Position numbers and translations under genes: made by a program
Part shown: in pieces, positions 7,452-12,123 of the stretch
Position numbering within the stretch: the first letter of the stretch is position 1
Layout: each line of letters opens with the position of its first letter
Notes under the pieces: generated by a model
Seen by the model: only the letters and a program-made list of their open reading frames with translations
What the model was told of the DNA's origin: nothing
The model's database searches: none
NCBI GenBank assembly: GCA_035627955.1
Contig: DASPKU010000001.1
Span: forward strand, 248,001-312,000
Length of the DNA stretch: 64,000 bases
Origin: Phycisphaerales bacterium
Lineage (GTDB): Bacteria; Planctomycetota; Phycisphaerae; Phycisphaerales; UBA1924
Reading direction: 5' to 3'

Positions 7452-7838
7452 ATGGCTGGCGAGGGACGGAAGAAGCTCAGGCCACTGTGCGACACGGTGG
7501 AGCTCGCGATCACGTCGAGCCCGGCGGGGAGCCTGCGTGATTTCATCCGCCCAACGGCGCACCCTGATGCCGAGCGGCTGGCCGAGTACCTGAGCCGGGC
7601 GCCTTGGCTCGAAGTCATTCCGGGCGTCACACGCGATGCTCTCGTTGCAGAGTCGCCTGCCAGTTTGGAGATGCACACGCTGACCGATGGGGTGTGGGCC
7701 TGGCGCATCGACTTGGCGCACTACGTCCGTACGCACCGGGTCTGGCCTCCCGATGAGTTCATCGAGCATGCGCGGGCTGCTGGCTGGCGACCGCCGGCTG
7801 AGGAAGAGATTGACTTCAGCACCTTTCGCTTAGAGTGA
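7452..7838 (+). CDS. Hypothetical protein
   Basis: A 128-residue soluble protein that I do not recognise. It has no signal peptide, membrane segment or obvious catalytic motif. The middle contains HTLTDGVWAWRIDLAHYV and the C-terminus is acidic (PAEEEIDFSTFRLE). The ATG at 7452 is 11 bp after rsfS, so it probably belongs to that transcript. It converges on prfB across a palindromic repeat. Confidence 0.6.
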   Translation: MAGEGRKKLRPLCDTVELAITSSPAGSLRDFIRPTAHPDAERLAEYLSRAPWLEVIPGVTRDALVAESPASLEMHTLTDGVWAWRIDLAHYVRTHRVWPPDEFIEHARAAGWRPPAEEEIDFSTFRLE

Positions 7839-7858
7839 AGCGCGTCCGGGTAGGGAAA

Positions 7859-7885
7859 GGCACGACCCGACGGATCGTGCCACCC
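7859..7885. repeat. Palindromic repeat, GGCACGA/TCGTGCC
   Basis: A 7-bp perfect stem (GGCACGA...TCGTGCC) with a 9-nt loop, followed by ACCC, in the gap between convergent genes. It shares CACGAC...CGTGCCACCC with 51787-51815 and the GGCACG core with the 29-bp hairpin family. Confidence 0.55.
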
Positions 7886-7893
7886 AACCCAAA

Positions 7894-9028
7894 TCACGGC
7901 CTCGCAGCCGCCTTCGCCTTCTCTTCCTTCTCCGCACGCCGGCGCTTCAGTTCCGCGTCGATGAAGTCAGCGATCTCGCCCCGCAGCACGGCCTCGTAGT
8001 CGCTGGACTCGTGGTTCGTGCGGTGGTCCTTCACGCGGTTGTCGTAGAACACGTACGAGCGGATCTGCGTGCCCCAGCCGCGGTCGATGGCTCCGCCCGT
8101 GGCGGCGGCCAGTTCCTTCTCGCGACGCTCGTCTTCCATGGCCTGCAGCTTGGACATCAGCACGGCCATCGCCTGGGCCTTGTTCTGCGGCTGGTCACGG
8201 AATGAGTTCGCCACCACCTGGATGCCTGTGGGGAAGTGCGTGATGCGGATGGCGCTGGCCACCTTATTGACGTTCTGCCCGCCGGGGCCCGACGCCCGCA
8301 CGAACGGCACGATCTCCAGATCCTTCTCGGGGATCTTGAGCTCGACCTCTTCGATCTCGGGCGCGACATCGACGGTGGCGAAGGACGTCTGCCGCTTGCC
8401 CTGGGCGTTGAAGGGTGAGACGCGGGCGAGGCGGTGCGTGCCGCGCTCGCAGTTGAGGTAGCCGAACGCGTACGGCCCCTTCACGTGCAGCGTGACCGAG
8501 TCGATGCCGACTTCCGAGCCGAAGCCGCGCTCGACCTCCTCGATCTGCCAGCCCATCTTCTCGCAGTAGTAGATGTACATGCGGAAGAGCATGTCGGCCC
8601 AGTCGTTGGCCTCGGTGCCGCCCTGGCCAGCGGAGATCGTGAGGAACGCGTTGGACGCGTCGTGCTTGCCGCTCAAAAGCGACTGCAGCTCGACCTTTTC
8701 CATTCGCGGCCCGAGCCGGAAGAGCGTCTCGTCGGCCTCGGCGATGAGGTCCTTGTCGCCCGTCTCCTTGCCCATCTCGTAGGCGAGCTTGGCGTCCTCG
8801 AAGTCCTTCATGACCCCGGTGAGCGGATCAAGCTGGGCCTTGAGCCCCTTGACCTGGGAGACGATCTTGCGGGCGCGGTCCTGCTGGTTCCAGAAGGCCT
8901 CGCCGGCCATCTCGGCCTCGAGCTCCCTCAGGTTCTTGAGCTTCTTGTCGTAGTTAAAGAGAGTCGCGGATGGTTACGATCCGCGCCTCGAGGTCGTTGA
9001 TGATGGGGCCGTGGGCGTCAAAGTGCAT
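7894..9028 (-). CDS. prfB: Peptide chain release factor 2, expressed by +1 frameshifting
   Basis: RF2 releases peptides at UGA and UAA. A 24-codon zero frame (9028 to 8954) reads MHFDAHGPIINDLEARIV and ends ...DSL then TAA. The +1 frame continues as NYDKKLKNLRELEAEMAGEAFWN, matching RF2 immediately downstream of the known frameshift point. Total product about 377 residues. The RF2 anticodon-like SPF (RVSPFNAQGK) and the catalytic GGQ (ASGPGGQNVNK) are present. The shift site is CTT TAA C, not the usual CTT TGA C, and no AGGGGG-like stimulator precedes it. A -10-like box lies 7 nt before the ATG. Confidence 0.9.
8953..8959 (-). promoter_or_regulatory. prfB recoding site CTT TAA C
   Basis: On the minus strand the slip codon CTT (8959-8957) is followed by TAA and then C, continuing CTACGAC as in the E. 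coli site. Skipping the T at 8956 restores the RF2 frame. The bases upstream (CCGCGACTCT) contain no Shine-Dalgarno-like element. Confidence 0.85.
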
Positions 9029-9035
9029 GGGGCGG

Positions 9036-9041
9036 ATGGTA
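9036..9041 (-). promoter_or_regulatory. Putative -10 box TACCAT for prfB
   Basis: On the minus strand TACCAT ends 7 nt before the ATG at 9028. Confidence 0.45.
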
Positions 9042-9117
9042 GCCGGTGGCCCACCCGAGCACCGGGCCCCGCGCCTCTGACCGCCCCTCGAAGGCGCGGG
9101 CAGCCGTTTCAGGCGGG

Positions 9118-9123
9118 TACAAT
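9118..9123 (+). promoter_or_regulatory. Putative -10 box TACAAT upstream of the kinase gene
   Basis: TACAAT lies about 60 nt before the kinase ATG, in the divergent region shared with prfB. A leadered transcript would result. No clear -35 box is visible. Confidence 0.35.
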
Positions 9124-9184
9124 CCGGTTCGCCCCTTGCTGGACCCCCGCCACCCCGGCGGCCGATGGACTGTTTAACCACCCG

Positions 9185-10597
9185 ATGCCCGATTCATCCC
9201 GCCAGAGCGACCCCGGCAAGACCTCACCCTTAGGGAAGGCCCCGGCCACCGGCCCGGCCGCGGCACAGGCCGCCTCGGCCAAGATGGGCTCCACCGGCCC
9301 CGCCGTGCCCACCGCCGAGGAGATCCTCCAGGAGGTCGCCAAGAGCGGGACCAACGTCGACACCATCGTCGGCCGCCTGGTGATCGACCAGGGCTTCGCC
9401 ACCCCCGAGGAGCTGTCGCACTGCCTGGCGCAGGCTAAGGCCCTCGCGGAGGAGAAGAGCCAGCGCTCCCTCGCCGAGCTGCTCGTCGAGAACGAGTACG
9501 TCACCCGCCGGCAGATGGCCCGCATCCGCGAGCTTGCTGAAGGCGAGCGCAGCGGGCAGAAGATCCCCGGGTACAAGGTGATGTCCAAGCTCGGCGCGGG
9601 CGCCATGGCCACGGTCTTCAAGGCCAAACAGCTCTCGCTCGACCGCATGGTGGCCATCAAGCTGCTGCCCAAGAAGTACAGCAGCAACCCGCAGTTCATC
9701 GAGCGCTTCTACGCCGAGGGCCGGGCCGCGGCGCAGCTCAACCACCCCAACATCGTGCAGGCCTACGACGTGGGCAAGGCGGGCGAGTACCACTACTTCG
9801 TCATGGAGTACGTGGAGGGCTCCACGGTCTACGACGAGATCGTCAAGCACAAGCGCTTCCAGGAAGGTGAGGCCATCGACCTCATCATGCAGGTCGCCGA
9901 GGCCCTGCAGCACGCCCACGAGCGCGGCCTTATTCACCGCGACGTCAAGCCCAAGAACATCATGCTGGCGAGGACGCAGGGCGGCTCTGGCCCGGGCTCC
10001 AGCATCGCCAAGCTTGCCGACATGGGCCTGGCCCGCGCCATCTCCGACAAGGAAGCCGCGGAGGCCGAGCAGGGCAAGGCCTTTGGCACGCCCTACTACA
10101 TCAGCCCCGAGCAGATCCGCGGGGAGATCAACATCACCCCCGCGGCCGACATCTACTCGCTGGGCGCCACGCTCTACCACATGGTGACGGGGGCGGTGCC
10201 CTTCGACGGCAAGAACCCCTCGGCGGTGATGCACAAGCACCTCAAGGCCGAGCTGGTGCCCCCCGACCACGTCAACGCCAAGCTCTCCGCCGGCCTCTCC
10301 GAGGTCGTCGAGATGATGATGGCCAAGGACCCGCGCAAGCGATACCAGTCCGCCCGCGACCTCATCACCGACCTCAAGGCCGTCAAGCAGAAGCAGCCCC
10401 CGCCCTTGGCCCACAAGGACATCGGCGGCGTGGACCTCACGCAGCTCGCCGCCGCCGAGGCCGCGGCCGCCGTGACCGAGATCCCCGTCTCCGCCAACCA
10501 GCCACCGCTGGTGCGCCCGTGGCTGTTCGGGCTGCTGATCGCCCTGCTGGTGATTAGCGTCGGATTCAATGTGTTCCTGCTCGCGCGGGGCGGCTGA
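9185..10597 (+). CDS. Membrane-anchored Ser/Thr protein kinase
   Basis: A 470-residue Hanks-type kinase. Residues 38-110 form an N-terminal domain (IVGRLVIDQGFATPEELSHCL) resembling the MshEN/type II secretion ATPase N-domain. The kinase domain (about 132-395) has a glycine loop GAGAMATVF, lysine in VAIKLL, catalytic loop HRDVKPKN and FGTPYYISPEQ. The metal-binding DFG is DMG here. An alanine-rich linker leads to one C-terminal membrane helix (about 443-465), so the kinase faces the cytoplasm and has no sensor domain outside. The start at 9185 excludes a compositionally unlike upstream frame. Targets are unknown. Confidence 0.9.
   Translation: MPDSSRQSDPGKTSPLGKAPATGPAAAQAASAKMGSTGPAVPTAEEILQEVAKSGTNVDTIVGRLVIDQGFATPEELSHCLAQAKALAEEKSQRSLAELLVENEYVTRRQMARIRELAEGERSGQKIPGYKVMSKLGAGAMATVFKAKQLSLDRMVAIKLLPKKYSSNPQFIERFYAEGRAAAQLNHPNIVQAYDVGKAGEYHYFVMEYVEGSTVYDEIVKHKRFQEGEAIDLIMQVAEALQHAHERGLIHRDVKPKNIMLARTQGGSGPGSSIAKLADMGLARAISDKEAAEAEQGKAFGTPYYISPEQIRGEINITPAADIYSLGATLYHMVTGAVPFDGKNPSAVMHKHLKAELVPPDHVNAKLSAGLSEVVEMMMAKDPRKRYQSARDLITDLKAVKQKQPPPLAHKDIGGVDLTQLAAAEAAAAVTEIPVSANQPPLVRPWLFGLLIALLVISVGFNVFLLARGG

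Positions 10598-11421: not shown

Positions 11422-12123
<702 letters not shown>

Follow-up and report, generated by a model that had tools for sequence, protein, structure and literature searches.

We found that prfB in the 64,000-nucleotide stretch of Phycisphaerales DNA analysed here (the window) has a +1 slip site that lacks an adjacent Shine-Dalgarno (SD) sequence, and that a conserved, covarying predicted hairpin lies at a fixed distance from the slip site in the place of the SD. The hairpin is widespread in the class Phycisphaerae. We consider it likely that the element is an RF2 autoregulatory +1 programmed frameshift in which the stimulator has been exchanged for an upstream hairpin. 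The hairpin would stimulate slippage by acting at the ribosomal E site, and the stop codon of the site, UAA, would let RF1 as well as RF2 damp it. The open-licence literature that was searched contains no description of a natural hairpin acting as the stimulator in prfB, as far as its listings show.

The prfB locus and its slip site

The gene lies on the minus strand of the window, where it reads ATG, MHFDAHGPIINDLEARIVTIRDSL, CTT, TAA and C, followed by TAC GAC (Table 1). It has the organization of an RF2 autoregulatory frameshift: an early zero-frame stop splits prfB, the slippery CUU_U precedes the stop, a C follows it, and RF2 is read in the +1 frame behind the slip site. The match to the RF2 model TIGR00020 (400.9 bits against a cut-off of 370, model positions 13-353) is the only one above the cut-off in the whole genome. 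An earlier note on this DNA had described a real RF2 frameshift site, CTT TAA C, and had argued that it is not random decay. Its letters and coordinates were right, and the argument was borne out.

Table 1. Features of the prfB leader and slip site, in positions of the window
Feature	Position	Strand	Remark
Start codon ATG of the zero-frame prfB leader	9026..9028	-	similar distance to slip site in relatives
Zero-frame leader ORF, 24 codons, ending in TAA	8954..9028	-	
GAGG abutting the 5' side of the stem: outer stem (GAG with CUC across a G.A mismatch) or displaced Shine-Dalgarno	8986..8989	-	
Predicted hairpin, 5' arm CGCGGAU	8979..8985	-	
Predicted hairpin, loop CGUAACC, 7 nt	8972..8978	-	
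Predicted hairpin, 3' arm AUCCGCG, ending at -6 from CUU	8965..8971	-	
Spacer ACUCU, 5 nt, including E-site codon UCU	8960..8964	-	
Slippery codon CUU, P site	8957..8959	-	
Stop UAA and next C	8953..8956	-	
RF2 body in the +1 frame, AAC TAC GAC ...	7894..8955	-	TIGR00020, 400.9 bits

RF2 could also be started internally, at the +1-frame ATG at 8910, which would make the frameshift dispensable. The mechanical ORF list begins at this ATG, and the same codon is ATG at 126 of 134 class sites. We give this explanation almost no credence. Methionine is present also in in-frame RF2 genes, and therefore the needs of the protein can explain the ATG; an internal start would cost RF2 its beginning and leave nothing to preserve CUUURAC and the hairpin.

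Two neighbouring genes lie on the plus strand. The ORF at 9011-10597, divergent from prfB, has protein-kinase-like motifs (HRDVKPKNI) and a C-terminal hydrophobic stretch, and the start listed for it overlaps with the prfB leader of the opposite strand. The ORF at 11422-12123 presumably encodes translation initiation factor IF-3, so that two translation-factor genes would lie within about 4 kb.

Leaders compared

Leaders were read at 140 loci of the class (45 in the window's order and 95 elsewhere), of which 134 have a slip site, and at 128 loci outside the class, of which 99 have one. No CTT/TTT-stop site was found at the other 6 and 29 loci, respectively. All of the leaders come from Planctomycetota. 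In the rest of the class, 25 of the 119 genomes with a prfB match were left unread, chosen blind to their leaders and mostly from families f9, f11 and f15; outside the class, 13 of 141 such genomes were left unread. The 134 class sites gave an alignment of 115 rows, from which locus L025 and duplicates were omitted. Locus L017, which covers 44% of the columns and has a very long branch, was excluded from the tree counts of changes. In the 115 rows, which were picked by the CTT/TTT-stop criterion, CTTT is invariant and the following C is present in at least 90%. For the window itself, both the starts and the gene calls were made mechanically.

Loss of the Shine-Dalgarno sequence

No SD-like stretch is present at -16 to -4 of the window site, where the duplex energy with ACCUCCUUU is about +0.4 kcal/mol, and thus the site has no SD-like stimulator about 3 nt before the CUU. 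The 3' end of the 16S rRNA is intact and has the normal GGATCACCTCCTTTCT. None of the 41 sites of the window's order has an SD beside the slip site. In the rest of the class, 16 of 93 sites retain an SD and are without the canonical stem. Outside the class SDs are the rule, with 92 of 99 sites having one (among them locus L396, which is probably false) and 7 having none. A species-wide loss of SD use was considered and is not supported. The first starts of gene-like ORFs in the window number 47, and 20 of them have an SD energy of -5 or lower, compared with 9, 5 and 8 of 47 in three control stretches; this is some enrichment, at starts that are guessed.

A conserved hairpin in the place of the Shine-Dalgarno sequence

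Between the start codon and the slip site, where E. coli carries AGGGGG, the leader of the window is predicted to fold into a 7-bp hairpin (8985-8965) that ends 5 nt before the CUU. The 30 nt upstream of CTT are nearly invariant among relatives. At least six of the seven stem pairs can form at all 41 sites of the order, and all seven at 39 of them; in the rest of the class, at least six can form at 77 of 93 sites. The commonest stem in the class is CCCGGAU/AUCCGGG, whose 3' arm yields the SD-like CGGGAC (median -4.0 kcal/mol), while CGCGGAU/AUCCGCG forms occur in the window's order, in family f9 and in some members of f11 and f18. The second stem pair is swapped from C-G to G-C, and both letters are third codon positions; the swap destroys the SD-like CGGGA and keeps the stem. 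On the RF2 tree of 107 rows, the swap accounts for at least 4 changes, counted on a quick tree with many weakly supported forks, with only rows of at least six pairs scored and a few T-A, T-G and T-T rows pooled with C-G.

The pairing was compared with shuffled alignments in the 115 distinct class rows, which were not selected for the hairpin. In these rows 90.4% of cells pair, compared with 82.4% after shuffling, and none of 500 shuffles reaches the observed value. Cells changed on both sides number 54, compared with 20 in the shuffles, and sliding the partner by 1-3 columns lowers pairing to 17-49%. The swapped pair, -25/-7, is CG in 56 rows, GC in 35, GU in 5, UA in 3, UG in 2, AU in 1 and another combination in 13. 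Only two stem pairs have changes on both sides, which is no more than in the shuffles (1.9 on average; 423 of 500 reach two), and therefore the covariation rests on two pairs in which both partners are third codon positions. RNAalifold gave no consensus structure for all 115 rows, which counts against the hairpin; the pair counts above refer to a named structure. By fold z-score only the 38-nt piece of the window is strong (-3.87), the values being -1.10 for its 76-nt leader and -1.25 and -0.16 for loci L033 and L035. No Rfam covariance model matched positions 7800-9300 up to an E value of 1.

Contigs were also scanned with a pattern in which either side of the swapped pair could be C or G regardless of its partner, and in which two other pairs could be A/G against C/T. 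Among the 119 matches listed, the swapped pair is complementary in every one (64 G-C and 55 C-G), and A against C occurs in none at the other two variable pairs. GGQ is found in the +1 ORF of 110 of these 119; the other 9 end with the locus before that point. Titles of the matches listed name Planctomycetota, many of them Phycisphaerae or Phycisphaerales, with the exception of one Verrucomicrobia, one Actinomycetota and three entries called 'uncultured bacterium'. The scan loci overlap the class sample, and the two are therefore not independent. As a side observation, the Actinomycetota-titled locus (L306, 3,121 bases) and the Verrucomicrobia-titled one (L243) have a prfB leader of the Planctomycetota type, and the Actinomycetota title is probably wrong.

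Natural controls are provided by four genomes of the order (G097, G103, G152 and G170, with loci L072, L073, L074 and L077 of family f6) that have RF2 in a single frame and no slip site. Their stems retain 5, 4, 5 and 4 of the seven pairs, respectively, and none is intact. These genomes bear on the question of whether the repeat has any role as RNA, because it might be a by-product of the conserved peptide ARI..IRDS written in GC-rich codons, with CUUURAC slipping unaided. When the order peptides were rewritten at random with synonymous codons of the window's usage, at least six pairs appeared in 53% of versions, and therefore part of the pairing comes free. All seven pairs, however, appeared in 11% of the versions and are found at 39 of the 41 order sites. 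Furthermore, the pair -25/-7 shows no mismatch among the 119 matches listed, and G097, in which RI..SIRDSL is retained in a single frame, has a C-C mismatch at the pair of the third positions of Arg and Ile (Arg3-Ile3). This makes an origin from peptide and codon usage very unlikely as the whole explanation.

Outside the class, a hairpin of -5 kcal/mol or lower is present at 5 of the 7 SD-less sites, compared with 12 of the 92 SD sites (Fisher p 0.0014, uncorrected for kinship). The five represent two lineages, namely four f51 genomes (GCUGCA...UGCAGC) and one f83 genome; their stems differ from the class hairpin, and all of them end at -6. No hairpin was found at the other two SD-less sites outside the class, L361 and L364. 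When all samples are pooled, a hairpin of -5 kcal/mol or lower is present at 61 of the 64 SD-less sites and ends at -6 in 60 of these 61. This association of SD loss with the hairpin is a raw one, and independent pairs on the RF2 tree are too few to confirm it.

The constant distance also bears on whether the hairpin has some other role, for instance in attenuating transcription, in RNA decay or as the binding site of a regulator, so that its nearness to the slip site would be incidental. The GC-rich stem is followed by ACUCUCUUU, which looks slightly like a terminator, and it matches no Rfam family. In families f18, f20 and f23, however, the corresponding bases are ACUGG, AGUGG or ACUGU, and CUUU is not preceded by a run of U. 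Of the 64 SD-less sites, 60 have the 3' end of the hairpin at -6, unrelated hairpins included, and the four order genomes that have no slip site also have no intact stem. We regard such a role as highly improbable.

Two further observations concern sites of mixed appearance. In family f16 (L052, L057, L059, L125 and L126), stems such as GAGCGUC...GACGCUC were seen by eye a few nucleotides further upstream, with an SD-like A/CGGGAC after them; these are possible intermediates between the SD and hairpin types. Genome G148 has two prfB-like genes, L047 and L113, one with an SD-type site and the other with a hairpin-type site, which may be a true pair or contamination.

In summary, comparison of sequences demonstrates a conserved predicted hairpin in the place of the SD, covarying at two pairs, at a fixed distance from the slip site and with a spread across the class. 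The earlier note had stated that no purine-rich stimulator is present upstream. This is correct for an adjacent SD; that the site lacks a stimulator altogether is unsupported, because the conserved, covarying hairpin, a putative stimulator, occupies that place. The note had named relatives that all carry TGA with a stimulator as the case against it, and the order presents a different picture, with TAA at 30 of 41 sites and an SD at 0 of 41.

GAGG at the foot of the stem

At SD-less hairpin sites, GAGG is the most usual sequence abutting the stem on its 5' side. The 8 nt there are SD-like (-3 kcal/mol or lower) at 34 of 40 sites in the order and at 15 of 16 other SD-less hairpin sites in the class, compared with only 16 of 61 class sites that have a near SD. 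Three outer pairs, GAG:CUC across a G.A mismatch, can form at 34 of the 40 sites in the order, and in the rest of the class at 10 of the 16 SD-less sites, compared with 2 of 61 class sites that have an SD; the CUC partner belongs to the spacer and the E-site codon. Both patterns are clustered in few lineages. In the class, the sequences allow GAGG to be read either as an outer extension of the stem or as a displaced SD brought to 5 nt from the CUU.

If the second reading accounted for the whole element, GAGG (-30 to -27) would pair with the anti-SD, and the hairpin would be looped out, shortening the distance to 5 nt, with no action of its own. We judge this to be rather unlikely, although the enrichment of an SD-like foot at SD-less hairpin sites agrees with it. 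The same bases fit the outer stem GAG:CUC equally well, and the clustering in few lineages weakens the enrichment. GAGG is found at the stem foot also outside the class, in 5 of 5 f51 sites, where it uses an AGG arginine codon (in genes of the window itself, AGG makes up 5% of the codons for arginine, which is the usage of the window and not that of f51) and where its last G lies inside the stem in the longest pairings. The f83 site (L203), however, has no GAGG, and within the class GCGG stands in its place at L004, L105 and L112, which are 3 of the 56 sites with a hairpin and no SD. In addition, the effective spacing would be 5 nt, compared with the 3 nt given for +1 shifting in section 36 of PMC5009743. 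We also observed that, within f51, the SD-less sites L188, L351, L353 and L354 have GAGG at the hairpin foot, and their sister L352 has CAGGAG and was counted as an SD site.

UAA at the slip site

RF2 reads UAA as well as its specific stop UGA, so the window site carries a stop codon that RF2 can read. UGA itself is absent there, and it is not strictly required, because 1.4% of published sites carry UAA; the figure refers to frameshifted prfB in a survey of 8,164 genomes (Prince 2025, PMC12421855). The slip-site consensus YTT_TRA_C, given in a 2013 paper (PMC3711429), already covers UAA. Thus, UAA as the stop of the prfB slip site is already known, and what is new is its frequency in the window's order. 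TAA is the stop at 30 of 41 order sites read, and at 22 of 27 in the window's own family. Elsewhere in the class it is found at 4 of 93 sites, and beyond the class at 1 of 99. A base error at the TAA of the window is unlikely because relatives share the base, the window's site being one of the 30. On the RF2 tree, which is a quick tree, the stop codon of the slip site changed at least 10 times. TAA is the rarest stop among the 48 gene-like ORFs of the window (TGA 32, TAG 11 and TAA 5).

We also looked for a link between UAA and SD loss, which is not claimed here. The raw numbers look strong, with UAA at 33 of the 64 SD-less sites and at 2 of the 169 others. Without the order, however, they become 3 of 23 against 2 of 169, and independent pairs on the RF2 tree do not support the link either (median p 0.5).

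Because RF1 reads UAA, the feedback would sense RF1 in addition to RF2. This follows from codon reading, and we infer it on that basis. Evidence cited in Prince 2025 (PMC12421855) indicates that, in most taxa, RF2 may be the main reader of UAA.

Proposed mechanism

When release is slow, the ribosome would pause while CUU occupies its P site and UAA its A site. Just behind the ribosome, the mRNA would then fold into the 7-bp hairpin, whose 3' end at -6 would lie against the E site, roughly where the SD:anti-SD duplex lies in E. coli. This duplex may favour loss of the E-site tRNA and slippage of the peptidyl-tRNA from CUU to UUU, after which RF2 would be made in the +1 frame. RF1, alongside RF2, could damp the slip at UAA.

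That the hairpin stimulates the slip is suggested by sequence comparison and by its position, because the predicted stem ends near the edge of the E site, and because related effects are described for a synthetic and a natural hairpin. Huang 2018 (PMC6321510) used the slip site CUUUGA in E. coli extract: a synthetic hairpin placed upstream reached about 60% of the +1 stimulation obtained with an SD, and only when RF2 was absent. Loss of the E-site tRNA is discussed there. According to section 36 of PMC5009743 (2016), the natural 5' stem-loop of T4 gene 60 may pull the mRNA. The window's hairpin abuts the E site upstream, like the synthetic one, with 7 bp and the 3' end at -6 in a predicted fold.

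We tentatively put forward a wider proposal, which is possible and well short of probable. A natural class of prfB signals may exist in which an exit-site hairpin replaces the near SD, and it may have arisen more than once in Planctomycetota. GAGG in the SD-less forms would be either an SD bridged by the fold or a zip with the E-site codon, and the feedback loop with UAA would read the summed activity of RF1 and RF2.

In the textbook account of the RF2 frameshift, the SD is regarded as hyper-conserved. An exchange of the SD for a hairpin would separate what is essential from what can be changed: the slippery codon, a weak stop and a duplex at the edge of the E site must be kept. If the proposal is true, a test-tube result obtained with a synthetic hairpin becomes a natural one. 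The matched natural variants (SD only, SD and hairpin, or hairpin only, with UGA or UAA) would serve for studying +1 slippage caused by a duplex behind the ribosome. They are also a warning for annotation programs that look for AGGGGG.

Comparison with known systems

The window site resembles E. coli prfB (AGGGGG UAU CUU UGA C) in its CUU_U, its zero-frame stop, the C after the stop, RF2 in the +1 frame and a position near codon 25. Unlike E. coli prfB, it has no adjacent SD, a predicted hairpin ends at -6, and the stop is UAA and not UGA. The E-site codon of the window is UCU, and UAU or UCU is typical of prfB sites according to PMC13245932.

The hairpin of Huang 2018 (PMC6321510) likewise abuts the E site upstream of the slip site, and it stimulates +1 slippage in a 70S system without RF2. 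It is a designed 12-bp stem with a UGCG loop in a reporter, whereas the predicted hairpin of the window is natural, lies in prfB and has 7 bp, or 10 if GAG:CUC pairs across the mismatch. The stem-loop of T4 gene 60 is also a natural hairpin, situated at the mRNA exit behind the ribosome, and a pull on the mRNA is proposed for it (PMC5009743, section cited). Unlike the window site, it serves the bypass of a coding gap and not a +1 slip, and no release factor feedback is involved.

The UAA-type sites of Prince 2025 (PMC12421855) share the premature stop CTTTAA with the window. They differ in that they are reported from 1.4% of genomes, as not broadly fixed in particular clades, in a survey that calls the SD hyper-conserved. 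In the window's order, most of the sites read have UAA as their stop, and none of the 41 has an SD.
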